Shown here in pieces: positions 4,327 to 61,469 of a stretch of 64,000 nucleotides of DNA. Numbering within the stretch: position 1 is the first letter of the stretch; every line of letters begins with the position of its first letter. Location of the stretch: contig NZ_QXDF01000001.1 in NCBI RefSeq assembly GCF_003550175.1, positions 186,001 through 250,000 of the forward strand, in the 5' to 3' direction. This DNA is from Dichotomicrobium thermohalophilum. Lineage in GTDB: Bacteria > Pseudomonadota > Alphaproteobacteria > Rhizobiales > Rhodomicrobiaceae. Both the position numbers and the translations under genes were made by a program. Below the pieces are notes generated by a model. It worked only from the letters and a program-made list of their open reading frames with translations. It made no database searches and had not been told where the DNA came from.

Positions 4327-4908
4327 TCACTGAGCCGTGCTGTCGTAATAGCTGACGATCGTGTCGAGGTCCGGCCGGTCGCGCTCCTGCGGCGGCTCTT
4401 TCGCCGTGCCGATATGGATGAAGCCGGCGATGCGCTCCTTCGGGTTCAGCCCGACGGCGTGGCGCGCGCTCTCGTCATAGGTGTACCACTCGGTGAGCCA
4501 GTGCGCGGCGAAACCGAGCGCATGAGCGGCGTGCACGAGATTCATGCACGCCGCACCGGCTGAGAGGATCTGCTCCCACTCGGGCACCGCGGGATGATAG
4601 ATCGTGTGCGAGACCACGGCGATCGTCACAGGCGAGCGCAGGAATCGGTTGCGCTCGATCTCGAGCCGCACATCCGAGGCTTCCGGCTCGTTCTCCGCCG
4701 TGATATGCGCCAGCCTTTCGCCGAGCGCCGCACGCTCACTGCCGGCAATGACGATGAAGCGCCAGGGCGTCAGCTTCTTATGGTCGGGCACGCGCGACGC
4801 GATCCGCAGAATGGTTTCCAGCTGTTGCTGGTCGGGGCCGGGATCCGTGAGGTTGTCAGCCTTCACGGAACGGCGGCTTCCCAGATGGTCAATAACGGGG
4901 TTTGTCAT
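4327..4908 (-). CDS. Nitroreductase-family FMN oxidoreductase (YdjA-like)
   Basis: This 193-residue protein is the size of small YdjA-type nitroreductases, which bind FMN and reduce nitro compounds or quinone-like substrates with NAD(P)H. Seen in sequence: RRSVKADNLTDPGPDQQQL near the N-terminus (FMN phosphate-binding Arg-Arg-Ser), ASRVPDHKKLTPWRFIVI, the central AGAACMNLVHAAHALGFAA helix, and GFIHIGTAKEPPQERDRP at the C-terminus. All are typical of the YdjA subgroup. The natural substrate cannot be told from context. It is divergent from the vWA operon. Confidence 0.85.
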   Translation of the reverse strand: MTNPVIDHLGSRRSVKADNLTDPGPDQQQLETILRIASRVPDHKKLTPWRFIVIAGSERAALGERLAHITAENEPEASDVRLEIERNRFLRSPVTIAVVSHTIYHPAVPEWEQILSAGAACMNLVHAAHALGFAAHWLTEWYTYDESARHAVGLNPKERIAGFIHIGTAKEPPQERDRPDLDTIVSYYDSTAQ

Positions 4909-4992
4909 GCAATTCTCCCATTTGTCCGCTCAACTCGCGCCCACGCGAGGAGAGTGCTGGACATTATGCGAAATCGGGGGAATGTTTGCGCT

Positions 4993-6972
4993 ATGAGAGG
5001 GCTTTTCATCAAGTTTTTTGCCGTTGTGACCGCGCTCTTCGCGCTTGCTGCGATGGGGCCGTTAGGCGGTTCCGCGCTCGCACAAAGTCGCGTGGTGATC
5101 CTCGATATGACCAACAGCATGTGGGCACCAATCGAAGGCGGGCGCAAGTATCAAGTCGCGCGCGAGGCAGTGGCCGGCGCGGCCCAGAACCTGGCAGCAC
5201 AGTCGCGGTTCGGGCTTTACGTGATCGGGAACCAGCCGGATGCTGGCTGCGAGGCCGTGACCGAGGCGGTGCCATTCGCGCCGCTGGACCGTGGCGCGCT
5301 GGACGCAGCGCTGGATGAGGCCATACCGGATCGCGGACGGATGCCCCTGTTTCCGGCGCTTGAGCGCGCGGTGAAGGCGATCCAGTCGGCGGGCGGCCGG
5401 GGCCGCATCCTCGTGGTAGGTGACGGAGCCGGCACCTGCATCCCTGACACCTGCGCCGCCGCGCGCGACCTCAGTGAGCGCACCGGCGGAGTGCGCATCG
5501 ACGCGGTTTCGCTGAACGCCGATGCCGAGACACGCCGCGGGCTGCAGTGTATTACCGACGGCACGGGCGGCGCCTACAAGGACACCGAAAACCGCGACGA
5601 GGTCATCACGTTCGTCCGCACCGCGCTCACCGGCAGCGAGACGCCGGACGCACCCAGGCCGCGTCCACGGGCAGCGCAGCAGAAGAATGCGCCGCCGCTG
5701 CCCGCCATCAATCCGTTCCGCCCCGGCCAGTCGCCGGTGGTGACGCTGCGCGCCGTCCTGGCCGAGGGCAAGGAGCCTATAACGCGTGGTCTCGCGTGGC
5801 GGGTGCTGGAGCCGACAGGCGGGGACGCTTCCGAGGTCTGGCGCGGGGCTGACGCGCAGCCGGAGGTGAATCTGCCGCCCGGCACATACCGTGTCGAGGT
5901 GGACTATGGCACGGTGAGCGCGAGTCGGGAGATTGCGGTGAAGCCGCGGCGCGCGCAGGACATCACGATCGACCTCAATGCCGGCGTGCTCAACCTTTCG
6001 GGCGCAGCGCGTGCGGGCGGTGAGCCTGTTGGCGATGTGTTTTATTATGTGCACCAACTGGAACAGGGCAGCGGACCCGGAAAACTCGTTGCGCGCTCCA
6101 GCCAACCGCAGCCGAGCTTCTATCTCCCCGCGGGCGCATATCGCGTCGTGGCACGCCACGGGTTGGCCGAGGCCGCGGACACCGTCGAGCTGGAAGCCGG
6201 CGCGATCCTCGGACGGAATTTGGCGCTGAACGCCGGCACGCTGCGAGTCGAAGCACGCGTGGCGGACGGCGAGGCGACACCGCGAGGCACCCTGTTCTCT
6301 GTCCATGCGCGCAACAGCGATGGCTGGCGCGAGGTGACCCGCTCGGCGCAGCGCGAACCCGTGTTCACGCTGCCCGAAGGCGAATATCGCGTCGAAGCCC
6401 GTCTGGATGCGGCGAGCGCAAGCACCACCGCGGAGATCAGCGCGGGCGAACAGCGGATCGCCTCGCTCAGCCTGCCCGCGGGCCGCCTGCAGATCGAGAC
6501 GCGGCTTGAAGGGCAATCCGGCCCGCTCGATGCCGGCGTGGTCTATCGCATGTTCCGGCTGGATGGCGGCGAGGCCGAACTGGTCCAGACATCCGCGCAG
6601 GCGCAGTACGAAGGCTTCCTCCCCGCCGGGCGCTATCGGGTCGTCAGCGCCTATGGCCTCGCCAACGCCGTGCAGACGCAGGAGGTCTCGATCGAGCCGG
6701 GCAAGACCCGGAGCCTCAGCTTCACCCACAATGCTGGGCGCGCGCAGCTTGGCCTCGTCAAGGTCAAGGGCGGACTGACGCTCGGACGCGTCAACTGGTC
6801 GATCCGCGACAGCAACGGCGAAGAGATCTACACCTCGACGGAAACAGTGCCCGAGCCGTATTTGCGCGCCGGTCAATATGTCGCCATCGCGGAGCGGCAA
6901 GGACAGACCGTGCGGCAAGCCTTTACGGTCTCGGCGAACCAGACGACCGTGGTAGAGATCGTGGCGGAATAG
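4993..6972 (+). CDS. Exported vWA-domain protein with repeated beta-sandwich modules
   Basis: This 659-residue protein starts with a signal peptide (about residues 1-30, ending GSALA). A von Willebrand factor A domain follows (about 33-210). Its metal-site loop reads D38-M-T40-N-S42, so the first serine of the canonical DxSxS is threonine. The rest, about 260-655, contains roughly five repeats of about 85-90 residues, each with a motif like PAGxYRVxAxxG (LPAGAYRVVARHG, LPEGEYRVEARLD, LPAGRYRVVSAYG). The gene lies 4 bases before a paralogue with the same architecture, so the two are co-expressed. An in-frame ATG at 4966 is an alternative start. It is probably a periplasmic adhesion or assembly protein; the partner is unknown. 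Confidence 0.75.
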   Translation: MRGLFIKFFAVVTALFALAAMGPLGGSALAQSRVVILDMTNSMWAPIEGGRKYQVAREAVAGAAQNLAAQSRFGLYVIGNQPDAGCEAVTEAVPFAPLDRGALDAALDEAIPDRGRMPLFPALERAVKAIQSAGGRGRILVVGDGAGTCIPDTCAAARDLSERTGGVRIDAVSLNADAETRRGLQCITDGTGGAYKDTENRDEVITFVRTALTGSETPDAPRPRPRAAQQKNAPPLPAINPFRPGQSPVVTLRAVLAEGKEPITRGLAWRVLEPTGGDASEVWRGADAQPEVNLPPGTYRVEVDYGTVSASREIAVKPRRAQDITIDLNAGVLNLSGAARAGGEPVGDVFYYVHQLEQGSGPGKLVARSSQPQPSFYLPAGAYRVVARHGLAEAADTVELEAGAILGRNLALNAGTLRVEARVADGEATPRGTLFSVHARNSDGWREVTRSAQREPVFTLPEGEYRVEARLDAASASTTAEISAGEQRIASLSLPAGRLQIETRLEGQSGPLDAGVVYRMFRLDGGEAELVQTSAQAQYEGFLPAGRYRVVSAYGLANAVQTQEVSIEPGKTRSLSFTHNAGRAQLGLVKVKGGLTLGRVNWSIRDSNGEEIYTSTETVPEPYLRAGQYVAIAERQGQTVRQAFTVSANQTTVVEIVAE

Positions 6973-6976
6973 CCAG

Positions 6977-8446
6977 ATGAGAAGGCAAATGAAAGTTCAG
7001 CCCATTCTCGCGGGCGTGCTGGCGCTCGGTGCGACTGCCCTGTTCGCCGCGCCCGCCGCGGCGCAGAGCGACAAGGTCATGCTGATCCTCGACTCCTCAC
7101 GTAGCATGTGGGGCCAGATCGACGGCGTGAACAAGGTCGTGCATGCCCGCGAAGCCCTGGCGCGCTTCTTCAAGCAGCAGGAAGGCGCCTTCCAACTCGG
7201 CCTGATGGCTTACGGCCACCAGGAAAAGGCGAGCTGCGATGACTTCGCGGTCCTCCAGGAAGTCGGCGAGGTCGAGGCCGCCGGCTATGCCAGCGCGGTC
7301 AAGAATATCTCGCCGAAAGGCTCCACGCCCATCGCTGCCGCACTCGACGCCGCCGCAGACGAAATGGCGAAAGAGACCGGCCGTAAGCACATTGTTTTGC
7401 TGAGCGACGGGCTGGACAACTGCGAGGGCGACCCCTGCGCACGCGCGCGGCAGCTTGCCCAGTCGGTGCCGCAGATGACGCTGCACGCCATTGCCTTCGA
7501 CAAGACCGGCAAGGAAGAGCAGCTGCGGCAACTGGCCTGCGTCGCCGAGCCGTCGGGCGGAATTTTCAAGTTCGCCAGCAATCGCGAAACGCTGGACGCA
7601 GCGTTGGCCGACGTCGCCGCACGCATCACCGCGCCGCCCCAGACGACCCAGTCCGTGGTGCCGGAAAATGTTGACCCCGAGGCGCCGGTCCCGATCAAGC
7701 TCACGGCGTTCCTGTCCGGCAGCGAGGAGCGTATCACGCGTGGGATCGTCTGGCGGGTGTTCTCCGGCCGCGCCGGCGATGACGGCCGCTACGAGATGCT
7801 GCATGAAATGCAGGACGCCCAGCCAACGCTGGAGCTGAAACCGGGCAACTATTTCATCAACGTCTCCTGGGGGCTGGCGCACGCGACCAAGCGGCTTCAG
7901 GTGACCCCCGGTCAACCGGCGCATGAACAGCTCATTCTGAAGGCCGGTGCGGTCCGCCTGAACGCGCGGCAGGCCAGCGGCGCGCCAATCGACATGGATG
8001 ATGCCCGCTTCGACATTTATTCCGATCGCACGGATCAGTTCGGCAACCGGGAGCGCATCATCGCCAATGCCCGGTCCGGCCCGGCCATCCGCCTCAACAC
8101 GGGCACCTACTACGTCGTCAGCCACTACGGCGACAGCAACGCCATCGTCGAGTCTCAGGTCGAGGTGAAGCCCGGTAAGCTGAGCGAGGTGATTCTGATC
8201 CACGATGCGAGCAAGGTCACGTTCCGACTGGCGGAGCGACGCGGCGGAGAGGCGATCGCAGATACGCGCTGGACAATCAAGACCGCGGATGGGCAGGTCG
8301 TGGAGCGGAGCGCAGGCGCGTTCCCGACGCATATTCTCACCTCCGGCAGATACCGCGTTGAAGCGCAGCACGGCGGACGGCTGTATGTCCGCGAATTCGA
8401 GCTTGCCGGCGGTGGCGCCCAGCAGGTCGAGGTGCTGATGCGTTAG
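6977..8446 (+). CDS. Second exported vWA-domain protein, paralogue of the preceding gene
   Basis: This 489-residue protein has a signal peptide (residues 1 to about 29, ending APAAA) and a vWA domain (about 33-215) whose metal site is the canonical D39-S-S41-R-S43. The later family motif is present as HIVLLSDGLDNCEGDPC. The C-terminal part holds about three modules like those of the upstream paralogue (LKPGNYFINVSWG, LNTGTYYVVSHYG, LTSGRYRVEAQHG). Start 6977 lies 4 bases after the upstream stop; an in-frame ATG at 6989 is also possible. The pair probably arose by duplication and may form a heteromeric periplasmic complex. It is convergent with the pentapeptide gene, 3 bases apart. Confidence 0.75.
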   Translation: MRRQMKVQPILAGVLALGATALFAAPAAAQSDKVMLILDSSRSMWGQIDGVNKVVHAREALARFFKQQEGAFQLGLMAYGHQEKASCDDFAVLQEVGEVEAAGYASAVKNISPKGSTPIAAALDAAADEMAKETGRKHIVLLSDGLDNCEGDPCARARQLAQSVPQMTLHAIAFDKTGKEEQLRQLACVAEPSGGIFKFASNRETLDAALADVAARITAPPQTTQSVVPENVDPEAPVPIKLTAFLSGSEERITRGIVWRVFSGRAGDDGRYEMLHEMQDAQPTLELKPGNYFINVSWGLAHATKRLQVTPGQPAHEQLILKAGAVRLNARQASGAPIDMDDARFDIYSDRTDQFGNRERIIANARSGPAIRLNTGTYYVVSHYGDSNAIVESQVEVKPGKLSEVILIHDASKVTFRLAERRGGEAIADTRWTIKTADGQVVERSAGAFPTHILTSGRYRVEAQHGGRLYVREFELAGGGAQQVEVLMR

Positions 8447-8449
8447 TAA

Positions 8450-9682
8450 TCAGCGCTGATAGTCGCCTTCGGTGAAGCGCATATTCGCGCCGCGTAGCGT
8501 CGCGCCCCGCAGGTCCGCACCGTTAAGGTTCGCGGCCTGAAGCTGCGCCTGGGTGAGGTCGGCGCCGGCCAGATTGACCGCGACCAGCCGCGCATTCTCC
8601 AGCTTGGCCTCGCGCAGGCTCGCCCCCGCCAGGTTGGCACCGGTGAGATCAGCGCGGTCCAGGTTCGAGCGGTCGAGAGTCGCATAACGCAGATCCCGCC
8701 CCCGTAGCTGCAGGCTCACCCCGGTCCGCGGCGCATCGGCGAGACCTACCAGGTCCGTGTCGGACACGACGAGATTGCGGGAGAACCAACTCTGCCGCTC
8801 GCCGGAAACCGGGTTCACCGCTCCCTCGAACAGATAGGCTGTCGGGAGGAAGGCGAACCGCTGCGCATCCCGCGCTGACGCGCCATAAGGGACGGGCGTG
8901 CGGAACCGCTCGATCGACGCCATCACCCTGTCGACGCCCTCTTCGGGGATCGTAGCCACCGCGAAGGAAAAGAACATCGCCGCAACCCAGATCACAATCA
9001 TTGCGAGAAAGCTCAGCGGATACGAGATAATGCTTTGCCCGAGACCGTTGATGTAGCGCGCGGCCGGGAAGTGAAGGAAGATCCAGAAGATCGCGAAAAT
9101 CAGGAAATCGACCAGGATATAGGCCCGCTGCGCCGTCGTGACCTCGAGATCATGGTACGGCAGGAACACGATCTGGAAATAAATCAGTAACGCCAGCGGC
9201 AGAAGCCAAAGCGTGATTGCGGACATCGCGTGGAGGAATGCGGAAAACAGCCGACTCCGGCTTGGCCCGGCGATGGCCTGAACATAGAAATAGGAATGAA
9301 GCTGAAGGCGTAGCCGGTGCGTACGAATAAAGGCATGGCCTTCCTGTCGCGCGACACGCTCGTGAAACTCCCGCACCTTGCGTGATAGCGAGACGTGCTG
9401 CAGCAGCAGGTTGATATGCAAAAGGAGCAGGATGGCCGGCGCAAAGATGAAGAAGCCGCGCAAACCGATTTCGACCCGCAGGATGGGCAGCGTAACGCGG
9501 TTATTCAAAAGCAGGTCGGCGTGCGAGATGCCAGCCAGCGTGACGAAGAAGTAGGCCAGCAACGCGATGAACACCACCCAGCCAAGGCGCGCGGAGCCGC
9601 TTGCCGCGTTGACATCTGCCAGCAGCGCGGCGTTTCTGGCGTCATTATCGCTCATGGCCTCGCGGGCGGTAACGTGGCTCAT
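8450..9682 (-). CDS. Membrane protein with C-terminal pentapeptide repeats
   Basis: This 410-residue product (start ATG 9682; an in-frame ATG at 9655 is an alternative) has about five to six membrane segments in the first 270 residues, for example [18 protein letters not shown] and [18 protein letters not shown]. About 15 pentapeptide repeats close the protein ([29 protein letters not shown] and similar, A(D/N)LxX pattern), predicted to form a right-handed quadrilateral beta-helix. Between them is a loop region with extracytoplasmic character. The reading frame continues upstream into uvrA territory, but that extension is not credible. Membrane pentapeptide proteins have no single known role. 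Confidence 0.75.
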
Positions 9683-9845
9683 GGAAGGGACTCGGGGCTC
9701 GGCCGGTTCGGTCGTGAGTGGGGATACCCGCTGATCGCGGAGGCCGCAACCATGGTCCGCAGAGGGAAACAACCAAACCACGGCGTCGGTGCCGGCCTGC
9801 ACGACAACCGCGCCAGAATGAGCGTCAAAGGTTAAGAGTACGCGG

Positions 9846-12734
<2,889 letters not shown>

Positions 12735-12779
12735 TTTTTGGTATGTTGGCTTCCGAGACAGATTTCGGTGAGCAATCTC

Positions 12780-13028
12780 ATGAGTACGACTGAAGCGCCT
12801 AGCTACGCGGATCGGATCACGGTAGATCCGGCACTGTGCAACGGCAAGCCAACGATCCGCGGAATGCGGATCACTGTTCAGACCGTTCTTGAGTATCTCA
12901 GTGCGGGCGAAAGCCGGGAAGAGATTCTGCGACAATTCCCAATGCTGGAGCCCGAAGACATTTCTGCGAGCTTGGCCTTTGCGACAAGCCTGATGGAGCA
13001 TCGCTACAGCTTCAAAGATACGGCCTGA
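12780..13028 (+). CDS. DUF433 antitoxin-like protein
   Basis: This 82-residue protein matches the DUF433 (VapB45-like) family: ITVDPALCNGKPTIRGMRIT, VLEYLSAGESREEIL and FPMLEPEDISASLAFA, a winged-helix-type fold that acts as DNA-binding antitoxin. The start at ATG 12780 has GGTGAG about 7 bases upstream; an upstream in-frame TTG is less likely. Its stop overlaps the start of the next gene (TGATG), the normal arrangement of coupled antitoxin and toxin genes. The pair follows uvrA by 45 bases and has slightly lower GC. Confidence 0.85.
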   Translation: MSTTEAPSYADRITVDPALCNGKPTIRGMRITVQTVLEYLSAGESREEILRQFPMLEPEDISASLAFATSLMEHRYSFKDTA

Positions 13029-13369
13029 TGGCTAAGTACCTGATTGATGCCAATCTCCCACGGAAGCTGAAAATCTGGTCGACCGACCAATATCTGTTTG
13101 TGCATGACATCAACCCTTCATGGCTCGACCATGAAATCCGCAAGTTTGCTCACGAACGCGACCTGACCATTGTTACCAAAGACGCTGATTTTTCCGACTT
13201 TATGTTCGTAGGCATGCCAACTCCCCGCATTATCCACATCCGTTTGGGCAATATGAAGTTTGCCGAACTGGAAGCTTATTTAGAGCGTGTCTGGGGAGAC
13301 GTGTGTCGCATGAGCGATGAATACCGCTTGGTGCGCCTATACCGTGATCGCATCGAGGCAGTCGACTGA
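13028..13369 (+). CDS. DUF5615 PIN-like toxin (VapC45-like)
   Basis: This 113-residue protein belongs to the DUF5615 / Mut7-C-like PIN superfamily, partner of DUF433. Acidic residues expected in the RNase active site are visible in YLIDANLP (Asp near residue 7) and in VTKDADFSDF (Asp cluster near residues 53-58), with HIRLGNMKFAEL later. Such proteins are predicted ribonucleases that cleave RNA when the antitoxin is lost. ATG overlaps the antitoxin stop, so translation is coupled. The target RNA cannot be predicted. Confidence 0.85.
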   Translation: MAKYLIDANLPRKLKIWSTDQYLFVHDINPSWLDHEIRKFAHERDLTIVTKDADFSDFMFVGMPTPRIIHIRLGNMKFAELEAYLERVWGDVCRMSDEYRLVRLYRDRIEAVD

Positions 13370-13843
13370 TCTCGCGTTCGACCGCTGGACTGCACGCTAG
13401 GGGATAGCGATCACATTCCGCCACATTCATGCGCTTAAAAGTAGCGGTGCGCCCGGAGCCACAACCTCCGGGCCGCACTGTCGGCCGGCTGCGTTTGTCA
13501 GGTTGCCGCGTTCCTGGCCGGCCGGCACCCCTGCGCTGCCACGCCAAACGCGAATCGCAGCCCATCATGGAGAATTAAGCCGTACTGGCGCGCCGCCCGT
13601 CAACGGCCCATGAACCATTCGCACCTGTCACCCACAGGTTGCGGGCGCCATCCGATGCGCCGCCGCTTTGCGGCGCAGCATTTCCTTGCTACACTTTAAT
13701 GTCAGGCTGGCCGAGCCTTGCAGCCCGTCCGGGCCAACGACGTCTCGAAGGCCGAACGACCCCGCGGCGCCCGCCGCCTGCGCCGCTACCCTCCAGGCCA
13801 GCCTCAAGCGGCGTCCGGAAAATTGGGTTGCAGGGTTAAGAGT
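13370..13843. other. 474-base gap: no gene seen, contains a strong hairpin
   Basis: Open frames here are short and overlap each other on both strands, without ribosome binding sites; I see no gene. The notable content is a long hairpin at 13447-13478 and a GC-rich palindromic stretch near 13535 (CTGGCCGGCC). Confidence 0.5.
13447..13478. other. Strong GC-rich hairpin in the intergenic gap
   Basis: GCCCGGAG (13451-13458) and CTCCGGGC (13466-13473) are perfectly complementary around a 7-base loop. The stem extends by GTGC/GCAC past a single bulged C, giving 12 pairs. There is no T run, so it is not a classical intrinsic terminator. It could be the 3' hairpin of the toxin-antitoxin transcript or part of a small RNA. 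Confidence 0.55.
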
Positions 13844-50650: not shown

Positions 50651-51352
50651 CTATTCGCGGCTTTCGTAGCTGTCCCACAGAGCGGGCGCGCCTAGATCTT
50701 CGAGGAACGCCCGGTGCGCTTCTTGTTCCTCAGCGGTGAGACGCGGGGGCAAAACCGCAGGGCGTGGGCGCACACGGATTTCCGTACCGGGCTGAAGCGC
50801 CGGACCGCGCGCGAAAGCTTCCTCCAGGCCAAGCGCAGCCTGTGTCCCACCGATCAACTCCATGTAGACGCGAGCAAGCAGTTCGCTGTCCAGCAGGGCG
50901 CCATGCTTGGTCCGCTCGCTCAGGTCGATGCGATACCGCTTGCACAACGCATCGAGGCTGTTCGGCCCGGCCGGATGCTTGCGCCGGGCGAGCGCCAGCG
51001 TATCGACCACCCGGTCGAACGGGATCGGGTCGCGCGAAACCTGCACCAGCTCGTGATTTATGAAGCCGATGTCGAAACTGGCGTTGTGGATGACCAGCTT
51101 GGAGTCGGCGATGAACTCCAGGAACGAGTCGGCGACCTCGGAAAAGACCGGCTTGTCGGCGAGGAAGTCATTCGTGATGCCGTGCACCTGCTGTGCGTCC
51201 TCGGGCACATCGCGCTCGGGGTTGATGAACTGGTGAAATTCCCGCCCACTCGGAACGTAATTCACCAATTCGATGCAGCCGATCTCAATGATCCGGTGGC
51301 CCTGTTTCGGATCGAGGCCGGTGGTCTCGGTGTCGAGCACGATCTCGCGCAT
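50651..51352 (-). CDS. dnaQ: DNA polymerase III epsilon subunit
   Basis: DnaQ is the 3'-5' proofreading exonuclease of the replicative polymerase. The 233-residue protein has Exo I (IVLDTETTGLDPKQGHRI), Exo II (VIHNASFDIGFINHEL) and Exo III epsilon (ERTKHGALLDSELLARVYMEL split by HxxxD) motifs with the DEDDh residues. The start ATG 51352 fits the conserved beginning MREIVLDTETTG. It is the last gene of the leftward operon from the origin. Confidence 0.97.
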   Translation of the reverse strand: MREIVLDTETTGLDPKQGHRIIEIGCIELVNYVPSGREFHQFINPERDVPEDAQQVHGITNDFLADKPVFSEVADSFLEFIADSKLVIHNASFDIGFINHELVQVSRDPIPFDRVVDTLALARRKHPAGPNSLDALCKRYRIDLSERTKHGALLDSELLARVYMELIGGTQAALGLEEAFARGPALQPGTEIRVRPRPAVLPPRLTAEEQEAHRAFLEDLGAPALWDSYESRE

Positions 51353-51369
51353 GACTTCCCCCGCTGATC

Positions 51370-51993
51370 TCAAACGTCCAGATCACGCCAGACGTCGATC
51401 TTCTGACCCTCTCGCTGGCGGAGTTTAGCGAGAATGTTGTCCAGTTGGGCGCGGCTCTCGGGAATGGTGCCGCTTGTGTCCACAACGAAATCGGCACGAG
51501 CACGCTTTTCGGCGTCCGGCATCTGCCGGCTGAGCAGGTCGTCAATCTTCTCCGGCGTCATGCCCTTACGCGCTGCCAGACGCTGGCGCTGCACTTCCTC
51601 GGGCGCACTGACCACGATCACCGCGTCGCACAGCTTGTCCGCGCCCGATTCGAACAACAGAGGAATGTCGAGGATAACCAGCTCCGCGCCGCGCATCTCC
51701 TCGGCAAGCACGAAGTCGCGCTGCTTGCGCCGCACCATGGGGTGAACGATCGCTTCCAGACGCGCCAAGGCTTCGGGATCCCCGGCAATCGCCTCAGCCA
51801 GCTTCTTGCGGTCGACCCGACCGCCCTGTGCCACGCCCGGAAACGCCTGCTCGATTTCTTCCACCGCCTCGCCCTCGTAAAGCGCGTGGACCGCCGCATC
51901 GGAATCGAAAACCGGAATACCCAGATTTTTCAAGTGGTTGGCGGCGGTGGACTTACCCATCGCCATCGAGCCGGTGAGGCCGACGATCATCAT
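51370..51993 (-). CDS. coaE: Dephospho-CoA kinase
   Basis: CoaE phosphorylates dephospho-CoA in the last step of CoA synthesis. The 207-residue protein has the P-loop IVGLTGSMAMGKSTAANHL, the DxD-like FDSDAAVHALYEG, and LVILDIPLLFESGADKLCDAVIVV. It overlaps the aroE stop by four bases (ATGA). Confidence 0.96.
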   Translation of the reverse strand: MMIVGLTGSMAMGKSTAANHLKNLGIPVFDSDAAVHALYEGEAVEEIEQAFPGVAQGGRVDRKKLAEAIAGDPEALARLEAIVHPMVRRKQRDFVLAEEMRGAELVILDIPLLFESGADKLCDAVIVVSAPEEVQRQRLAARKGMTPEKIDDLLSRQMPDAEKRARADFVVDTSGTIPESRAQLDNILAKLRQREGQKIDVWRDLDV

Positions 51994-52850
51994 GATGCGG
52001 CCTTGTCCTGCTCGATGTCGGCGACGATGCGCGCGCGTAGTTCGGGTGTCACCTCGGGGCGCACGCCGAACCAGCGGGCGAAGCCGGGAACGGCCTGGTG
52101 CAGAAGCATCCCCAAGCCGTCGACAGTGCGCAGGCCGCGCGCCTTCGCCGCGCGCAGCAGCGGCGTTTGCAGGGGAACATAAACGATGTCGGTGACGACA
52201 GCATCACTCGGGAGCGCAGCAAGGTCGATTTCCAGCGCAGGGGAACCTTCCATGCCGAGCGAGGTCGTGTTCACGAGCAAGGCGCACCCATCGAGCATGG
52301 CGTCACGCTCCGCCCAGGCGATCGCTCTGACTGCCGGGCCGAAGGCTTCGGCCAGTCCCTGCGCCTTGGCGAAAGTTCGGTTGGCGAGCCGGATTTCGGA
52401 AAAGCCCCGATCGATCAGCCCTTTTAGCACGGCCCGCGCTGCCCCGCCCGCGCCAATCACTGCGGCGCGGCTGCCGCCATCCCAGCCGGGCGCGCCTTCG
52501 TCGAGATTGGCGAGGAAGCCATAGACATCGGTGTTATCGCCGACAAGCTGACCATCATCGAGCCAGATGGTGTTGACCGCCTGGACCGCCTCGGCCGCCG
52601 GCTCGCGCCGGTCGACCAGTTCGTAGGCCAATTCCTTGTGCGGCACGGTGACGTTGGCGCCGATCAACCCGCTCTCCGCAAAGCGATCGAGAAATTCGGG
52701 AAAATCCTCCGGCGGCACGGCTTGTTTGTCATACCGGCCCGGCAGATCGTACTTTTCCAGCCAATAGCCGTGAATCAACGGCGAACGCGAATGCGCCACC
52801 GGCCAGCCAATAACGCATGCCTGCGGGCCACTGTCTTGTGCTTCAGGCAA
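51990..52850 (-). CDS. aroE: Shikimate dehydrogenase
   Basis: AroE reduces 3-dehydroshikimate with NADPH in aromatic amino acid synthesis. The 286-residue protein has VIGWPVAHSRSPLIHGYWL, GANVTVPHKELAYELVD, GDNTDVYGFLANL, AAVIGAGGAARAVLKGL and TTSLGMEGSPAL. I place the start at TTG 52850, which overlaps the maf stop (TTGCCTGA) and has GGAG at suitable distance; the open frame further upstream is maf in another frame. Confidence 0.95.
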   Translation of the reverse strand: MPEAQDSGPQACVIGWPVAHSRSPLIHGYWLEKYDLPGRYDKQAVPPEDFPEFLDRFAESGLIGANVTVPHKELAYELVDRREPAAEAVQAVNTIWLDDGQLVGDNTDVYGFLANLDEGAPGWDGGSRAAVIGAGGAARAVLKGLIDRGFSEIRLANRTFAKAQGLAEAFGPAVRAIAWAERDAMLDGCALLVNTTSLGMEGSPALEIDLAALPSDAVVTDIVYVPLQTPLLRAAKARGLRTVDGLGMLLHQAVPGFARWFGVRPEVTPELRARIVADIEQDKAAS

Positions 52851-53490
52851 GAAGTATCTCCATCTCGCGCAACTTCGCCAGTAGCGGCAACAGCGGCAGG
52901 CCAAGCACAGTGAAATAATCGCCGTCAACGCGCTCGAAGAGCTGGGCGCCCGGGCCTTCAAGCTGATAGGCGCCCACACTGGTCAGCACCGCCGCACCCG
53001 CAAGGCTCAGATAACGCCCCACGAATTCGGCGGAGAAGTCGCGCATCTTCATCGTGGCGGTATCGACATGCGTCCAGAGATGCTGGCCGCCGCGGCACAG
53101 GCAAACCGCCGAATGGAGCACATGCGTCTTCCCCCGCAGTTCAAGGAGCTGCTCGCGCGCGGCGTCGAAATCCAAGGGCTTTTCGAGTGCGCGATCCTCG
53201 ATGGCGAGCACCTGGTCCGCACCGAGTACGAGCGCATCCGGCTCGGCGGTGCTGATTTGCGTAGCCTTCGTAAGCGCGAGGAGCTCGGCGATGTCCCCGG
53301 CCTGGGTGAACTCGTCTTCCTGGCGCAACGCTTCCCGAACGCTGCTCTCGTCGAGATTAGACGGCTGTTGCGTGAAAGCGACTCCGGCGCTGCGCAGCAC
53401 CGCCACGCGGGCCGGGCTCGCCGAAGCGAGAATCAGGGCTGGCTTTTCAGCCTGTAGACCCGCCGTGACCGGCGGTGCGGCATCGGTCAT
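52843..53490 (-). CDS. maf: Maf-family nucleoside triphosphate pyrophosphatase
   Basis: Maf proteins hydrolyse non-canonical or modified NTPs to NMP and pyrophosphate. The 215-residue protein shows LILASASPARVAVLRSAGVAF, ALVLGADQVLAIED, and VLTSVGAYQLEGPGAQLFE and RVDGDYFTVLGLPLLPLL. AGGAGG precedes ATG 53490, just after the ppsR stop. It lies in the origin-proximal leftward operon. Confidence 0.95.
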   Translation of the reverse strand: MTDAAPPVTAGLQAEKPALILASASPARVAVLRSAGVAFTQQPSNLDESSVREALRQEDEFTQAGDIAELLALTKATQISTAEPDALVLGADQVLAIEDRALEKPLDFDAAREQLLELRGKTHVLHSAVCLCRGGQHLWTHVDTATMKMRDFSAEFVGRYLSLAGAAVLTSVGAYQLEGPGAQLFERVDGDYFTVLGLPLLPLLAKLREMEILLA

Positions 53491-53492
53491 CC

Positions 53493-54341
53493 TCAGCCCT
53501 CCTGAGCAGCGCGCGCGACTTGGCGATCCTGGTAGCGCCGGATGATATCCGCCGCCGTCTCCTCGATCGAGCGACGGCTGACATCAATGATCGGCCAGTG
53601 ATGGCGCTGACACAAGCGCCGCGTGTACGCGATTTCTTCCTTGATGCGATCCATGTCGACGTAGTCTTGGAGCCGACGATCATTGAAGGACATCACCCTG
53701 TTGTGGCGGATTTCGGCGATCCGTTCGGCCGTTGCTGTCAGGCCGACAATCAGCGGACGCTCCGCCGTCTCAAGCGTTTCGGGAACGGGAAGGTCCGGGA
53801 CGAGGGACACATTGGCGGTCTTGTAACCCCGGTTCGCAAGATAGATGCTCGTTGGCGTCTTGGATGTCCGGCTGATCCCGACCAGCACGATATCCGCCTC
53901 GTCGAGCGTCTCGGTATTTTGCCCGTCGTCATGCATCATGGAGAACTGCATGGCGTCGACGCGGCGGAAATAATCGGCGTCCAGTACATGCTGCCCGGCC
54001 ACCACTGGCGTGGAGTCGGCACCGAGATATTGTCCGAAGGCGTTGAGGATCGGTTCAAGGACCGCAATACAGGGCAGCCCCATCTTCTTGCACTGGTTTT
54101 CGAGTTCCCGCCCCAGATCGGCGTTGACGATGGTGTAAAGCACGATGCCGGGATTGGCGTGGATCTTCTCCACGACGTCGCCGAGCTGGTCGCGGGTGCG
54201 GACCAGCGGATGGACATGGTGAATGGCGCGGATCAGCGAGTACTGAACCGTGGCGGCCTTCGCAATCATGGTAAGCGTTTCACCCGAGGCATCAGACACC
54301 AGGTGCAGGTGAAACGACTTTTTCGGTGCCTTCTTCTGCAT
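53493..54341 (-). CDS. ppsR: PPSR family regulatory kinase/phosphorylase (DUF299)
   Basis: This 282-residue protein is of the DUF299 family, which controls PEP synthase or pyruvate, phosphate dikinase by reversible ADP-dependent phosphorylation. It starts HLHLVSDASGETLTMIAKAA and has the P-loop-like LVGISRTSKTPTSIYLANRG and YVDMDRIKEEIAYTRRLC, then HHWPIIDVSRRSIEETAADI. It is the first gene left of the probable origin and divergent from hemE. Confidence 0.94.
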   Translation of the reverse strand: MQKKAPKKSFHLHLVSDASGETLTMIAKAATVQYSLIRAIHHVHPLVRTRDQLGDVVEKIHANPGIVLYTIVNADLGRELENQCKKMGLPCIAVLEPILNAFGQYLGADSTPVVAGQHVLDADYFRRVDAMQFSMMHDDGQNTETLDEADIVLVGISRTSKTPTSIYLANRGYKTANVSLVPDLPVPETLETAERPLIVGLTATAERIAEIRHNRVMSFNDRRLQDYVDMDRIKEEIAYTRRLCQRHHWPIIDVSRRSIEETAADIIRRYQDRQVARAAQEG

Positions 54342-54843
54342 GGTCTTTTCCGTGGCGGTTGCGCCGGTCGCGGAGGTTCAGCGCGTCGGCGGGAATCACA
54401 CTTCGATCCAAAGTAGCTGCGGTCCGTGTGGGCGAATCCCAGATTCGTCACCACAACCTATCCAGACCCCACGCGCTCATCCCGAGTCCCGCACGCCAAT
54501 CAAAAAATCACCCACAGCGGATCTGATGGTGACAATCGATCCGGCGGCTTCTCCCCTTTGTGGACAGACTCCGCTCGCTCCCCGCTTCGTTCAGGCATCT
54601 GTCCGCGTAACTTTCCTCTCAAGGGTCATTTATAACCGATCGACCCAACGTCAAAAATCGGGATTGTTCAGATTGACAGACACGCTGATTGCCGGCAGGA
54701 CTGAGCGCCGGAGCCGCGACCGGCGACAAGCTGTGAACGAATGGGGGATTTTTTTGAATTCAACAAATCCACCTCCGGAAAAATAAAACAGCAGAGTCAG
54801 GCTCAAGACAGGATTTTGTTTTCGGGATTATGGATCGGGCCTA
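54342..54843. other. oriC: Probable chromosomal replication origin (oriC), ppsR-hemE interval
   Basis: No gene is credible in these 502 bases. Transcription diverges here for at least five genes on either side. The gene neighbours equal those of mapped alphaproteobacterial origins beside hemE (Caulobacter, Sinorhizobium). Four degenerate DnaA boxes (7 of 9 to TTATCCACA) lie at 54458-54466, 54508-54516, 54559-54567 (reverse) and 54732-54740 (reverse). An AT-rich stretch runs at about 54747-54790. Six GANTC methylation sites (54393, 54434, 54442, 54484, 54567, 54794) are more than expected by chance. Exact limits are unknown. Confidence 0.7.
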
Positions 54844-55896
54844 ATGTCGGACGAGACCACGCGACCAGCGGCTAGCCGGTTCCTCCGCGCTCTTTCCGGA
54901 GAGGTGATGTCACCACCACCGATCTGGCTGATGCGCCAGGCCGGACGCTATTTGCCGGAGTACCGTGAGGTTCGCGCCAAGGCAGGGGGGTTCCTTGACC
55001 TTTGCTATACACCGGAACTGGCAGCGCAGGTAACGCTCCAGCCAATCGAGCGATACGGCTTCGATGCGGCAATCCTCTTTTCCGACATCCTCGTGGTTTC
55101 GCATGCTCTCGGACAGAAGGTCTGGTTTGAGGAAGGCAAGGGGCCACAACTTGAACCGATCACGCGAGAGGGTGAACTGTCACGGCTGTCCATGGACGGC
55201 GTCGATAAGACCGTGGCACCGATCTACGAGACGGTTTCGCGCGTCGCCCAGGCGCTGGACGAAGAGACCGCGCTGATTGGCTTTTGCGGCGGTCCCTGGA
55301 CCGTGGCGACCTACATGGTGGCTGGGCAGAGCACGCCCGACCAGGCGCCCGCCCGGCTGTGGGCGTATCGCGATCCGGAAGGCTTCGCCAAGCTGATGGA
55401 TATGATCGTGGAAGCCTCTGCCACCTATCTCAGCGGCCAGATCAAGGCGGGCGCGCAGGCCGTGCAGATCTTCGAGAGCTGGGCAGGCACGCTGCCGGAC
55501 AGCGAGTTCCGCCGCTGGGTGATCGCGCCGACGCAGAAACTGGTGAGCGCGCTGCGCGCTGAACATCCGGAAACGCCGATCATCGGGTTTCCACGCGCAA
55601 GCGGTCCGATGTACCTTGATTTTCTTACGCAGACGGGCGTCGACGCGCTAGGCTGCGACACAGCGCTTTCGCTTGACTGGATAAAGACGAATCTGCAGCG
55701 TCGGACGGTCGTTCAGGGCAATCTCGACCCGCTGCTTTTGGTGGCGGGCGGTGACGAGCTTGAGCGGCGCGCCCGCGATATTCGGGACACGCTCTCAGGC
55801 GGTCCGCACATTTTCAATCTTGGTCACGGTATCGTTCCGCAGACTCCGCCAGAGCATGTCGCAACGCTTGTGAAGACCATCCGGGAAAGCTTTTAG
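54844..55896 (+). CDS. hemE: Uroporphyrinogen decarboxylase
   Basis: HemE decarboxylates uroporphyrinogen III to coproporphyrinogen III in heme synthesis. The 350-residue protein has the N-terminal signature PPIWLMRQAGRYLPEYREV, ILFSDILVVSHALGQKV, FCGGPWTVATYMV, FESWAGTLPDSEF, GFPRASGPMY, QGNLDPLLLVAG and NLGHGIVPQTPPEHV. Length is normal. It lies directly right of the probable origin. Confidence 0.97.
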   Translation: MSDETTRPAASRFLRALSGEVMSPPPIWLMRQAGRYLPEYREVRAKAGGFLDLCYTPELAAQVTLQPIERYGFDAAILFSDILVVSHALGQKVWFEEGKGPQLEPITREGELSRLSMDGVDKTVAPIYETVSRVAQALDEETALIGFCGGPWTVATYMVAGQSTPDQAPARLWAYRDPEGFAKLMDMIVEASATYLSGQIKAGAQAVQIFESWAGTLPDSEFRRWVIAPTQKLVSALRAEHPETPIIGFPRASGPMYLDFLTQTGVDALGCDTALSLDWIKTNLQRRTVVQGNLDPLLLVAGGDELERRARDIRDTLSGGPHIFNLGHGIVPQTPPEHVATLVKTIRESF

Positions 55897-55907
55897 GATC
55901 AAAGGCA

Positions 55908-56348
55908 ATGGAAGGCTTGTACCTTTACGTCAAGGCGTTTCACGTTATTTCGATCATTGCCTGGATGGCGGGGCTTTTATACTTGCCACGGTTGTTCGTT
56001 TATCACGCTTACGCTGATGTCGGCTCGCAGCAGTCGGAGACCTTCAAGCTTATGGAGGTTCGTTTGCTGCGTTACATCATGAACCCAGCCATGATTGCGA
56101 GCTGGGTTTTTGGGCTTTTACTTCTTGGTTACTACGGCGTCATCAATTGGTCAGTGGATATATGGTTCCATGTCAAGTTCTTGCTGGTCATTATTCTGAC
56201 TGGCTATCACATGGTGCTCGCCCGCTGGCGCCGGTTGTTCGCGCAGGATCAGAATGCGCATTCGGCGAAATTCTATCGCTTCATGAACGAGGTGCCCACG
56301 GTCATCATGGTGGTGGTCGTGATTCTGGCGGTCGCCCGCCCGTTCTAG
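55908..56348 (+). CDS. hemJ: Protoporphyrinogen IX oxidase HemJ
   Basis: This 146-residue membrane protein with four spans matches HemJ (UPF0093): VKAFHVISIIAWMAGLLYLP (His for heme), RLFVYHAYADVGSQQSETFK, MEVRLLRYIMNPAMIASWVF, and WFHVKFLLVIILTGYHM. HemJ oxidises protoporphyrinogen in many alphaproteobacteria. It lies 11 bases after hemE, which supports a joint heme operon. Confidence 0.95.
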   Translation: MEGLYLYVKAFHVISIIAWMAGLLYLPRLFVYHAYADVGSQQSETFKLMEVRLLRYIMNPAMIASWVFGLLLLGYYGVINWSVDIWFHVKFLLVIILTGYHMVLARWRRLFAQDQNAHSAKFYRFMNEVPTVIMVVVVILAVARPF

Positions 56349-56680
56349 CGTCAGACTTGCTTGCAGCTTCGGTGCGGCACCCAATATATTGTGGAAGCGC
56401 GGGCCCGTTCAGGTCAGTTCGTTGCGATTTGGTCACGAACAAGCTAATAGCGTCTTTGCGCGATGAATTAAGTCTGGTATGTTTCTAGCGTATCGCCAGA
56501 CTTGAGCAGGTGTGGGCACGCTGCTCACCCGAAATAACCTAGAGGCGCGAGGCCGCTCTGGGTGTTTCCCACCCATCTCTCTGCATTCCAACGCCCTCTT
56601 TCGCGAAACCGCTTGACTCACGTGTCCAATTGCGGACGCGCCCCCGAGAAGGCGGCAATGATTTTCCAGGAGCCATATCC
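56349..56680 (+). promoter_or_regulatory. rho leader with C-rich, rut-like stretch
   Basis: This 332-base gap holds no gene. From about 56566 to 56612 the rightward strand is rich in C and T and poor in G (TTTCCCACCCATCTCTCTGC, then ATTCCAACGCCCTCTTTC). That composition is expected of Rho utilisation sites, and rho is known to control itself by early termination in its leader in E. coli. No intrinsic terminator was found. The promoter is not identified. Confidence 0.4.
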
Positions 56681-57946
56681 GTGCAGGAAATGAAGCTACA
56701 AGACCTCAAAATGAAATCACCGGCGGAGCTGCTGAGCTTTGCCGAGGAGGTCAATGTCGAAAATGCGAGCGCGATGCGCAAACAGGAGCTGATGTTTGCC
56801 ATCCTGAAGCAGCTCGCCACGCGCGATATCGACATCACCGGTAGCGGCGTTGTGGAAGTGCTTCAGGATGGGTTCGGCTTCCTGCGCTCGCCGGATGCGA
56901 ACTATCTGCCGGGGCCGGATGATATCTATGTCAGCCCGAGCCAGATCCGGCGCTTTGGCCTGCGTACCGGCGACACCGTCGAAGGACAAATCCGCAGCCC
57001 GAAGGACGGAGAGCGGTATTTCGCGCTACTCAAGGTCAACAAGATCAACTTCCAGGAGCCCGAAAAGAGCCGGCACAAGATCCACTTCGACAACCTGACG
57101 CCGCTCTACCCGGACGAGTGGCTGCGTATGGAGGTCGAGAGTGCGGAGGGCAAGGACCTGAGCGCACGGGTCATTGACATTGTCGCCCCGCTCGGCAAGG
57201 GGCAGCGCGGGCTGATTGTCGCGCCGCCGCGCACGGGTAAGACGATGTTGCTGCAGAACATCGCGCATTCGATCACCTCGAACCGGCCTGAGTGCTATCT
57301 GATTGTGCTGCTCATCGACGAGCGGCCGGAAGAAGTGACCGACATGGAGCGCTCGGTGGATGGAGAGGTCATCAGCTCGACCTTCGATGAGCCGGCGGCG
57401 CGCCATGTTCAGGTGGCCGAGATGGTGATTGAGAAGGCAAAGCGACTCGTCGAACACAAGCGCGACGTCGTGATCCTGCTCGACTCGATTACGCGGCTGG
57501 GCCGCGCCTACAACACGGTCGTGCCTTCTTCGGGCAAGGTGCTGACGGGCGGCGTGGACGCCAACGCACTGCAGCGGCCGAAGCGATTCTTCGGCGCCGC
57601 GCGGAACATCGAGGAAGGCGGCTCCCTGACCATCATCGCGACGGCGCTGATCGACACCGGGAGCCGCATGGACGAGGTCATATTTGAAGAGTTCAAGGGG
57701 ACGGGCAACTCGGAGATCGTGCTCGACCGGAAGGTAGCGGACAAGCGTGTGTTCCCCTCCATCGACATCGCGCGTTCAGGCACCCGCAAGGAAGAACTGC
57801 TGGTGCCCGAGGCACGTCTGAAGAAGATGTTCGTCCTCCGCCGCATTCTGAACCCGATGGGGACCATGGAGGCGATCGAGTTCCTGTTGGACAAGCTGCG
57901 TCAGACCAAGACGAACGACGACTTCTTTGACTCGATGAACACCTGA
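56681..57946 (+). CDS. rho: Transcription termination factor Rho
   Basis: Rho is the hexameric RNA helicase that ends transcription at C-rich sites. The 421-residue length equals the usual core. N-terminal RNA-binding region: [53 protein letters not shown]. Walker A is [16 protein letters not shown], then [20 protein letters not shown] and [14 protein letters not shown] 56681 with AGGAG upstream is the likely start; ATG 56690 is possible. Confidence 0.97.
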
Positions 57947-57950
57947 GACC

Positions 57951-60026
57951 TCAGGTGGGCGCGCCCAGCTGCCCCTTGCGTGCTTCGAGCAGCAAGTCGC
58001 GCAGGGCATCCTGCGAGATAACCGGCAACGAACACTGCGGCCCGACACAGACGTAGGCCGTCGGCGTCCCGTCGATCGTGACCTTGCCGTCGAGCGCCGG
58101 GTTGGCCGGCACAGCTTCGGCTTCCACACAGGTTTGAACAACGGTGCCGGGAAGAGAGAGTTCGGTGACCGTTTTGCGAAGCGCGTCGGCTTCGCTTCGC
58201 TCACGCTTGGCGATAATGGCGACATGCTGCGGCTCAGTGAGCGTCATTAGCGTGTCCACGAAGCCGGCGTGCGCGACAGGGTTCTTGGCGATTTCATGCC
58301 GGAAGGCACGCTCGATGTTGTGCGCCTGGTCTTCGAACCGGCGATCACCCGTTAGCAGGAACAGGGTCATGAAGTTCGACGCCATGACCGGGTTGGCGTT
58401 TGGCGTCGAGTCGTCATGCGCGTTGTGGGTGCGGATGATGATGTCGTCCGTGTCATCCGCCGAGAGGTAGTAGCCGCCGTAGTCGTGGGCCCAGAAGTGC
58501 TGGTCCAACACATTCGCCCAAGCGAGCGCGTCACTCAGGAAAACACCCTCCCCAGTATGCAAGTACAGCGCAAGGGCGGCGGAAATCATGTTTGCGTAAT
58601 CGGTCGCGATGGCCGGCGCGGAGGTCTGGCCCGCGCGGTAGCTGTGCCGCAGGCGGTCCCCCTTGCTCATGTTCGTCTTGACGAAGTCGTAGGCTTGGCG
58701 GGCGAGCCTGACCCAGGCCGGCTGCTCGAATGCCGCCCCCGCGCGCACAAGCGCCCCGATCATCAGTCCGTTCCAGTCCGCGAGAACCTTGTCATCCCAG
58801 CCCGGCCGTACGCGTGTTTCACGTGAAGCAAACAGTTTGCAGCGCATCTCCGCGAGACGTTTTTCCTCCGCATCGGGAAGAGGCTCCGGGTGCTTGAGAC
58901 GGTTCAGGATGTTCTTGCCTTCCCAGTTTCCTTCCGGCGTCACATCGTATATGCGGGTGAATAGATCGGCATCGTCCGGGCCCAGCGCATTCACGATCTC
59001 CGAATAATCCCAGACGTAGAATTTTCCTTCCTCCCCTTCGGAATCGGCATCCAGCGACGAGGCGAACCCGCCGTCCGGCGCGATCATCTCGCGCTCCAGC
59101 CAGCCGATCGTTTCTGAAGCGCGCTCGGCATAGAGAGGGTTCCGCGTCTCCTTCCATGCCTCGGTCAGCAGGTCGAGGATCTGCGCGTTGTCATAGAGCA
59201 TCTTCTCGAAATGCGGGACCAGCCATTTCTCATCGACGGTGTAGCGGGCGAAGCCGCCGCCGATATGATCATAGATGCCTCCCTGGCACATGCGGGTCAG
59301 AGAAAGGTCCACGGCGCGGCGGCAAATTTCGATGTCGAAGCGCAGACCTGTTCGCCAGAGCAGCCCGAAGATCGAGGTGTTCGGAAACTTTGGCGCGCCC
59401 TGGAGCCCCCCATTCACCGGGTCGATAACACCGGCGATCTTCCCGGCCAGGTCCTGGATCGTCTCCAGCGATATCGGCGCCATCTCGCCTTCCGCGCCAC
59501 GTGGCTCCAGGGCCTTGCGCAACAACGTGGCGTTATGCGTGACCTTGTCGGACTCCTCCTTGTAGACGCGGGCGACCTCCTTCAAAACATCCTTGAATCC
59601 GGGGCGACCATACTTCGCGGTGTTCGGGAAGTAGGTGCCGCCCCAAAAGGGTTCGCCATCCGGCGTGAGGAACATGGTCAGCGGCCAGCCACCGTGGCCT
59701 TCGAGGCTTTGCAGGGCCCGCATGTAGAGCGCGTCGACGTCCGGTCGCTCCTCCCGGTCCACCTTGATGTTGACGAACAGATCGTTCATCACCTCTGCAG
59801 TCGCCTCGTCCTCGAAGCTCTCATGCGCCATGACGTGGCACCAGTGACAGGCGGCATAGCCAACGGAGAGCAGAACCGGCTTTCCGGTCTTCTTTGCGTG
59901 GTGAAAGGCCTCGGCGTTCCAGGGCCACCAGTGGACCGGATTGTCCTTGTGCTGCAACAGATAAGGACTGGTCTCTCCGGCAAGATGATTCTGGTTAGGG
60001 TTGTCGAACTTCGAAGCGTTTTCCAT
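57951..60026 (-). CDS. DUF255 thioredoxin-like and glycosidase-fold protein
   Basis: This 691-residue protein of the YyaL/SSP411 family starts [20 protein letters not shown] and has a thioredoxin-like domain (about 10-170) with the CxxC-type motif [16 protein letters not shown], then a six-hairpin glycosidase-like helical domain (about 200-600, [19 protein letters not shown]). The length is typical. Function is not known; human SSP411 is its homologue. The gene runs against its neighbours and carries a parS-like sequence (58815-58830) in its coding part. Confidence 0.92.
58815..58830. promoter_or_regulatory. parS: parS-like site (one mismatch) inside the DUF255 gene
   Basis: TGTTTCACGTGAAGCA differs at one base from the chromosomal ParB-binding consensus TGTTTCACGTGAAACA. 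It lies about 4 kb right of the probable origin and is within coding sequence, as many parS sites are. Confidence 0.8.
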
Positions 60027-60118
60027 ACCTCGTCCCCGCGGTCCGCTGGTTCGTTTGACGCTTTTACATGAAATCACCGGCACAGCGCCTTGAATACGGG
60101 GATGGTGCGATACAAACC

Positions 60119-61453
60119 ATGAATATGCAAACCACGATCTATGCCCTTTCGAGCGCACCGGGACGCGCCGGCGTGGCCGTCATCCGCGTATCCGGCCCGG
60201 CAACGGGGGAGGCTCTATGCGCGCTTGCGGGTGATGTTCCGCCCCGGCGGCGGGCAAGTCTACGGGACCTGCGGCACCCCGGAACGGGCCGTAGGCTCGA
60301 CCGTGCGCTGGTGCTCTGGTTTCCCGCGCCTTCGAGCTTCACGGGGGAGGATGTCGCCGAGCTGCACGTGCATGGCGGCCGTGCTGTGATTGAGGCGGTA
60401 TTGTCCGCGCTGGCGGAGGTGCCGGGAATGCGGGCGGCGCAGCCCGGAGAGTTTGCGCGGCGCGCATTCGAGAATGGCAAGCTTGATCTGACGGCTGTTG
60501 AGGGCCTGGCTGACCTCATTGACGCCGAGACCGAGGCGCAGCGCCTCCAGGCGCTTCGGCAATCGGACGGAGCGCTGGCGGCGCTATATGAGAGCTGGCG
60601 GCAAAAGATCATTCTGGCGCTTGCAGAGATTGAAGCGGATCTCGATTTCAGCGACGAGGCTGACGTCCTGGCTTTCAACGATCGAGCCGCCTTTGCGCAG
60701 ATCGCCGATCTCGAGCGGTCAATCCGCGCGCATCTCGATGACAGCCACCGCGGTGAAATCCTGCGCGACGGGTTGCGCGTGGCGATCGCGGGCCCGGTGA
60801 ATGCCGGCAAATCGAGCCTGCTAAACGCCCTAGCCCGGCGCGAGGCAGCCATCGTCTCCGAGAAGCCCGGGACAACACGTGACGTCGTTGAGGTCCGGCT
60901 CGACCTGAAGGGTTATCCGGTCATCGTGTCCGATACCGCCGGGATGCGCCAAACCGATGAGGAGATCGAGGCGGAGGGGGTGCGCAGGGCGTTGGCGCGG
61001 GCGAAGGAAGCCCAGATCGTGGTGTGGCTCATCGACGGCGCACAGGCGCAGCCGACACCGCCACCCGCAGAGATACCGGTCGAGAAACGGCTCACTGTGG
61101 TGAATAAGACCGAGTTGCTGACCACGCGAGACCCGTATCCGGTCAAGGCGGATCTTTTCATTTCGGTCCACACGCAGGAAGGTATCGGCGAACTCGTGGA
61201 CCGTATCGGGGCGGAAGCCGCAGCGCGCCTGGAAGCTGGGGATGCCGCGCCGCCGACGCGGGAGCGACATCGACGCGAGTTGGAAGAGGCGATGAGGTCG
61301 CTGGGGGCATTTCTGGAGGGATCGCCGGATGAACTGGAACTGCGCTGCGAGGACCTGCGTCGCGCAGCCGACTGCATGGGGCGTCTGACAGGACGTATCG
61401 ACGTGGAGGATATCCTCGATCAGATCTTCGCTCAGTTCTGTATCGGAAAGTAA
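60119..61453 (+). CDS. mnmE: tRNA modification GTPase MnmE
   Basis: MnmE (TrmE) works with MnmG to make the cmnm5 group on wobble uridine 34. The 444-residue protein shows [20 protein letters not shown] at the N-terminus, [20 protein letters not shown], the GTPase P-loop [17 protein letters not shown], switch [15 protein letters not shown] and [17 protein letters not shown], and the C-terminal catalytic CIGK. ATG 60119 or 60125 fits the conserved start; the frame continues upstream without homology. Confidence 0.96.
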
Positions 61454-61469
61454 TGTTTCACGTGAAACA
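61454..61469. promoter_or_regulatory. parS: Perfect parS site between mnmE and mnmG
   Basis: TGTTTCACGTGAAACA is the perfect 16-base ParB-binding palindrome. It starts at the base after the mnmE stop codon, about 7 kb right of the probable origin. It marks the centromere-like region for chromosome partition; parA and parB are expected just beyond rsmG, off the window. Confidence 0.95.

Follow-up and report, generated by a model that had tools for sequence, protein, structure and literature searches.

A probable chromosomal replication origin in the ppsR–hemE gap of Dichotomicrobium thermohalophilum

Introduction

The chromosomal origin of Caulobacter crescentus, Cori, has been mapped between hemE and the COG1806 gene (DUF299, CC0001), and the origin of Rickettsia prowazekii has been placed there too, according to excerpts of PMC1914354, in which the putative origin of Neorickettsia sennetsu is described as having neither DnaA nor CtrA sites. 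The Caulobacter G-box, as printed in the excerpted part of PMC4285127, is TGATCCACA. In Agrobacterium the DNA methylase CcrM is reported to affect initiation at ori2, a RepC-dependent origin (excerpt of PMC11514494). The present analysis concerns the orthologue of the Caulobacter and Rickettsia locus in Dichotomicrobium thermohalophilum, a 502-base non-coding gap between ppsR and hemE at positions 54342–54843 of a stretch of 64,000 nucleotides, hereafter the window, which corresponds to C1:186001–250000 (C1 being a contig of 2,150,849 bases in a genome of 2,988,045 bases and 7 contigs). This gap is a known origin locus in another lineage and not a new kind of origin, and it is very probably the DnaA-dependent chromosomal origin of the organism, where DnaA would bind and replication would fire. 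The origin is thereby placed for an alphaproteobacterial lineage that has retained the locus but few of the sites known from Cori.

Strand Composition Around the Gap

The assignment is based on the GC-skew minimum, on synteny and on the DnaA boxes of orthologous gaps; the position of the gap, the skew, the parS sites, the synteny, the conservation of a sequence block and the low duplex stability described below were all computed directly. The gap is bounded by the ATG of ppsR on the minus strand (53493–54341; DUF299/COG1806, a phosphoenolpyruvate synthetase regulator, 332.5 bits to NF003742 against a cut-off of 225) and by the ATG of hemE on the plus strand (54844–55896; 405.5 bits to TIGR01464 against a cut-off of 302.95). 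A sequence-only reading of the window had proposed an origin between these divergent genes with precisely these limits and had pointed to the hemE neighbourhood of known alphaproteobacterial origins; the gene starts at 54341 and 54844 bear out the former, and the locus is indeed that of the mapped Caulobacter origin (excerpt of PMC1914354).

Cumulative GC skew over the contiguous 160 kb of C1:160001–320000 reaches its minimum at C1:240659, or position 54659 of the window, inside the gap; a minimum lying elsewhere, named beforehand as the refuting result, was not found. The rest of C1 was sampled in 20-kb stretches, about one per 40 kb, and the sampled stretches cover about half of the genome overall. 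With seven exceptions, the skew of the C1 samples is negative up to the gap, positive on to the sample at 1,700,001 and negative from the sample at 1,740,001. Within C1:1700001–1760000 the cumulative skew has its maximum at 1,710,208 and falls steeply after about 1,724,000, so that the opposite turn lies at about 1.71–1.73 Mb, and the half-genome point counted from the minimum is 1,734,681, presuming that the two ends of C1 are joined into a circle by the remaining contigs, which are unordered and total 837 kb. Among the samples of those contigs the skew is mostly positive in C2, mostly negative in C3, negative in C4 and C5 and positive in C6, which is uninformative without the order and orientation of these contigs. 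In addition, a complete genome of the family (G005, about 10% sampled) has a noisy skew whose lowest sample adjoins hemE, which lends weak support.

Origin Signals in Orthologous Gaps

The hemE loci of relatives were taken from the top 80 among 590 confirmed stretches and from a set of 30 loci, a match having been found in 60 of 61 genomes. The order dnaQ-coaE-aroE-maf-ppsR|hemE-hemJ-rho is common to most of these loci, as far as their contigs extend. In the window, dnaQ, coaE, aroE and maf occupy 50651–53490 on the minus strand and hemJ and rho 55908–57946 on the plus strand, all identified by profile match and synteny, with Maf under the NCBIfam cut-offs. In several relatives ppsR is missing and maf adjoins hemE instead, and a group of loci, L035, L067, L075 and L079 among them, showed none of the other seven genes beside hemE. 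The 12 loci lacking both ppsR and maf were excluded from the counts, and the maf–hemE gap was used where ppsR is missing, giving a set of 93 distinct gaps other than that of D. thermohalophilum.

Exact DnaA boxes number 27 in these 93 gaps, whereas 60 permuted boxes average 0.2 (at most 4); with up to one mismatch there are 163 boxes, present in 74 of the gaps, against a permuted mean of 8.4 (at most 35). GANTC, the target of CcrM, occurs 303 times where base composition predicts 141, and seven palindromes of the same make-up occur between 60 and 157 times. This enrichment in DnaA boxes and GANTC indicates that, judged by its sequence, the ppsR–hemE locus bears origin signals throughout the set of relatives.

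The Partition System Near the Gap

The single parB gene found lies at C1:251091–251615, about 10 kb from the gap. A palindrome search of the whole assembly, allowing one mismatch, returned three parS-like sites, which lie to the right of hemE at 4.0–15.8 kb from its start; a reversed control pattern gave none. One of them, with one mismatch, is at 58816–58829 (C1:244816–244829), the exact parS GTTTCACGTGAAAC is at 61455–61468 (C1:247455–247468), and the third is at C1:256687. Exact parS was present in 51 of the 61 genomes searched, D. thermohalophilum included. Among the 40 genomes listed (again with D. thermohalophilum), 33 have exact parS on the hemE contig, each within 33 kb, and of the 59 sites that these contigs carry, 52 are at most 12 kb downstream of hemE; three sites, in G040 and G002, are on the opposite side of hemE, parS is on another contig in 6 genomes, and hemE was not found in 1.

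Sites Within the Gap

Three DnaA-box-like sites with two mismatches to TTATCCACA were detected by motif search, namely CTATCCAGA (54458–54466, plus strand), TCACCCACA (54508–54516, plus strand, within the conserved block) and CTGTCCACA (54559–54567, minus strand), much as the sequence-only reading had anticipated with its several degenerate, and no perfect, boxes. Since 2 of 60 letter-permuted boxes do equally well, the boxes of this gap alone are weak evidence, and their enrichment was rejected as proof of an origin. The pentamer CCACA, which was chosen post hoc, occurs four times in 54427–54563, a number reached by 2 of 400 shuffles. As a side observation, exact TTATCCACA occurs just 3 times in the 2.99 Mb of the genome (9 times for the reversed control), with no copy within 40 kb of the gap, and exact TTATNCACA is absent from the gap.

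Six GANTC sites are distributed along the gap, at 54393–54397, 54434–54438, 54442–54446, 54484–54488 (invariant in the family copies of the block), 54567–54571 (abutting the third DnaA-like box) and 54794–54798 (within the AT-rich stretch). The genomic rate of 1.55 per kb, obtained from 1.54 Mb of sampled sequence, predicts about 0.8; of the 30,040 windows, each 502 bases long, that cover this sample in 50-base steps, only 16 have six sites or more. Base composition of the gap predicts about 1.9 and its dinucleotide shuffles about 3.4, and the excess is partly compositional because 47 of 400 such shuffles reach six. Thus, of the earlier claim of six sites against about two expected by chance, the count, the compositional expectation and the excess over the genome stand, whereas no clear excess is left relative to the dinucleotides of the gap itself.

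The AT content of the gap is 45%, against 37% in the window, and rises to 57% at 54742–54841, so the AT-rich stretch reported previously is real. By nearest-neighbour energy, the 100-base stretch of lowest stability in the gap lies at its hemE end (54735–54835), only 0.53% of the 100-base stretches of the window being less stable, and contains two GGATTTT(T/G)TT repeats 65 bases apart; this region is a candidate DNA-unwinding element.

A Block Conserved in the Family

Alignment of the family gaps revealed, on the ppsR side, a 33-base block, GAGTCC-N3-AC[G/C]C-N-AAT-N12-CACA (54484–54516, plus strand), which has a CcrM site on the left and ends on the right in a degenerate DnaA box. Its pattern was then searched with up to one mismatch in 397 genomes drawn from the order. 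It is found without mismatch in all eight family genomes of this draw, one copy each, seven of them placed in the ppsR–hemE gap and the eighth (G006) unplaced at a contig edge. Outside the family, one-mismatch matches occur in 4 of 389 genomes, which is the chance level, as the reversed control pattern gives 5; the match in G013 is off the hemE contig. Six different sequences are represented among the eight copies. Of the 33 columns, 17 are identical throughout, made up of the 16 letters that the pattern fixes and a further A. The last nine bases of the block read TGATCCACA, the Caulobacter G-box, in G001, versus TCACCCACA in D. thermohalophilum. Titles and abstract beginnings in the literature on origins, hemE, DnaA and GANTC contain no mention of the block, but no search was aimed at the block itself, and this is not proof that it is unpublished.

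As a CcrM site joined to a degenerate DnaA box core, the block is the best candidate for an initiator-binding element, a function suggested by its sequence. The strongest competing explanation, plausible enough to be taken seriously though the less probable of the two, is that the block is a promoter or operator of ppsR, for example one regulated by GcrA and CcrM. GANTC sites function in promoters together with GcrA, both GcrA and CcrM are encoded here, and in the other family gaps the block starts 54–61 bases from the estimated ppsR start; in D. thermohalophilum, however, it starts 142 bases from ppsR, and its invariant right end, CACA, is a DnaA box core, with an exact G-box at this place in G001. 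If the block is an initiator-binding element, as preferred here, it would offer a small, testable target for asking whether CcrM methylation influences DnaA-dependent initiation in the class. A bolder proposal, which we consider rather improbable, is that origin control in the family depends on a single composite element, with a CcrM site at a constant spacing of 29 bases, counted between the first letters of GAGTC and CACA, from a DnaA box kept weak on purpose. Hemimethylation behind the fork would then directly alter DnaA loading, and such a methylation lock would replace strong boxes and CtrA silencing.

By eye, a second, weaker conserved stretch can be seen in the family gaps (e.g., L154), about 40–80 bases upstream of hemE and around CCGCAAT...CCCTA, which is perhaps the hemE promoter.

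Observations Against an Origin in the Gap

Several observations weigh against the proposed origin. No DnaA box TTATCCACA with zero or one mismatch is present in the gap, and the same region has no CtrA site (neither TTAA-N7-TTAA nor TTWW-N7-TTWW), no integration host factor (IHF) site of the form WATCAN5WTR and neither the G-box TGATCCACA nor the W-box TCCCCA of Caulobacter. Seven C1 samples (186001, 380001, 500001, 900001, 940001, 1220001 and 1940001) have a skew sign opposite to that of their arm, the skew covers only about half of a genome assembled as 7 contigs, of which C2–C7 are unordered, and in G005 the skew keeps falling for at least 20 kb beyond hemE and shows a near-equal second dip at about 3.8 Mb. 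Furthermore, six of the eight family genomes have no exact parS, in a search for exact copies that did not extend to mismatch variants, and in the family genome G002 the exact site is 33 kb away on the other side of hemE.

An origin situated near the gap but outside it, for instance in another gap between hemE and parB, with the ppsR–hemE gap acting as a divergent promoter region only, would accommodate the weakness of the boxes, the fact that skew minima are generally precise to some kilobases only and the need for the gap to house the promoters of ppsR and hemE as well. Nevertheless, the cumulative skew minimum falls inside the gap, DnaA boxes are strongly over-represented in the orthologous gaps and no TTATCCACA with up to one mismatch occurs anywhere from 51094 to the end of the window, and an off-gap origin is regarded as very unlikely. 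Nor is the lack of a box with up to one mismatch peculiar to this gap, since it is shared by 19 of the 93 others. That an initiator other than DnaA mainly drives initiation at the locus, as the lack of recognisable boxes might suggest, is dismissed as extremely improbable, given a complete dnaA encoding a canonical DNA-binding domain and better boxes at the same locus in many relatives.

Replication Proteins and a Proposed Mechanism

DnaA is encoded by a complete gene at C1:790 kb, far from the gap, and scores 478.6 bits to TIGR00362; according to an excerpt of PMC8116508, two of the orders studied there have not kept dnaA near the origin. The DNA-binding domain of the protein aligns nearly end to end with that of Escherichia coli DnaA (1J1V) and has the RPRQ and GGRDHTTVLHA motifs, and a changed box specificity behind the weak boxes is therefore not indicated. 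The sole N6/N4 methylase found carries a RAMA domain and has CcrM as its best solved relative (6PBD, E-value 3e-159). GcrA is also encoded, with a profile score over the cut-off, as is CtrA (401 bits against NF045991, cut-off 350).

With these components, we infer the binding of DnaA, the order of its assembly, the site of unwinding and a role for methylation as follows. DnaA would nucleate on the left-hand cluster of weak boxes (about 54427–54567), centred on the GAGTC...CACA block of the family, and would then oligomerise in the direction of hemE, opening the AT-rich duplex at 54735–54835, where the helicase would be loaded. Forks would proceed bidirectionally and meet at a terminus roughly half the genome distant, the nearby parS/ParB region would segregate the new copies, and the GANTC sites would probably signal the replication state via CcrM and GcrA.

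Other Features of the Neighbourhood

Two plus-strand open reading frames of 148 and 313 amino acids overlap the gap, have no Pfam match and were taken as chance frames rather than genes. At 54000–56700, no Rfam RNA family was found at gathering level. To the right, mnmE follows hemJ and rho on the plus strand, and between rho and mnmE a minus-strand frame of 735 amino acids (57951–60158), opposite to both, carries a Thioredox_DsbH/DUF255 thioredoxin-like domain; the parS-like site at 58816–58829 sits within this frame.

Outside the window, about 19–39 kb to the right of the gap, the sample C1:260001–280000 (L087) has 39.6% G+C, compared with mostly 63–66% in the samples. On each strand it contains open frames some 2,900 codons long; the minus-strand frame (4824–13571 of this sample) begins with a DUF459/GDSL-lipase-like domain, and neighbouring frames encode M23 peptidase, LysM and haem-peroxidase domains. 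This stretch may be a surface-protein island, foreign or specialised, in the vicinity of the origin. A second sample, C1:1220001–1240000, with 55.4% G+C and a skew sign opposite to that of its arm, is a possible island.

Comparison With Known Origins

The likeness to Cori lies in the orthologous hemE/DUF299 gap, AT-richer than its genome (excerpts of PMC1914354, PMC4285127 and PMC6399470), in a similar size class, although Cori has 404 bp and the present gap is longer with 502 bp, and in a nearby parS, about 8 kb away in Caulobacter. The high-affinity boxes of Caulobacter are likewise described there as one base off the E. coli consensus, and are accompanied by very weak W-boxes. The sequence-only reading had expected weak boxes as in Caulobacter: weak they are, but the comparison holds in part only, as the gap has none of the G-box, W-box, CtrA or IHF consensus sites. 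Its regulation should not be described as Cori-like, the CtrA and IHF features having been sought and not found, and it differs additionally in its family-specific block, which elsewhere occurs only at chance level.

In Sinorhizobium meliloti, according to the excerpted part of PMC4433202, CtrA is encoded and the origin lacks a CtrA motif, and the same holds for the gap in D. thermohalophilum. A locus named as Sinorhizobium (L051) has boxes with one mismatch, unlike the present gap, which has none; this comparison is with L051 and not directly with the S. meliloti origin itself. The hemE/COG1806 origin of Rickettsia and the hemE origins of Wolbachia and Ehrlichia share the locus and the size class, whereas those genomes are mostly AT-rich and their origins mostly carry DnaA and IHF consensus sites (excerpt of PMC1914354). 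The gap of D. thermohalophilum is ordinary by its location, and the weakness of its DnaA boxes throughout, together with the family block, makes it a mildly unusual member of this group of origins.
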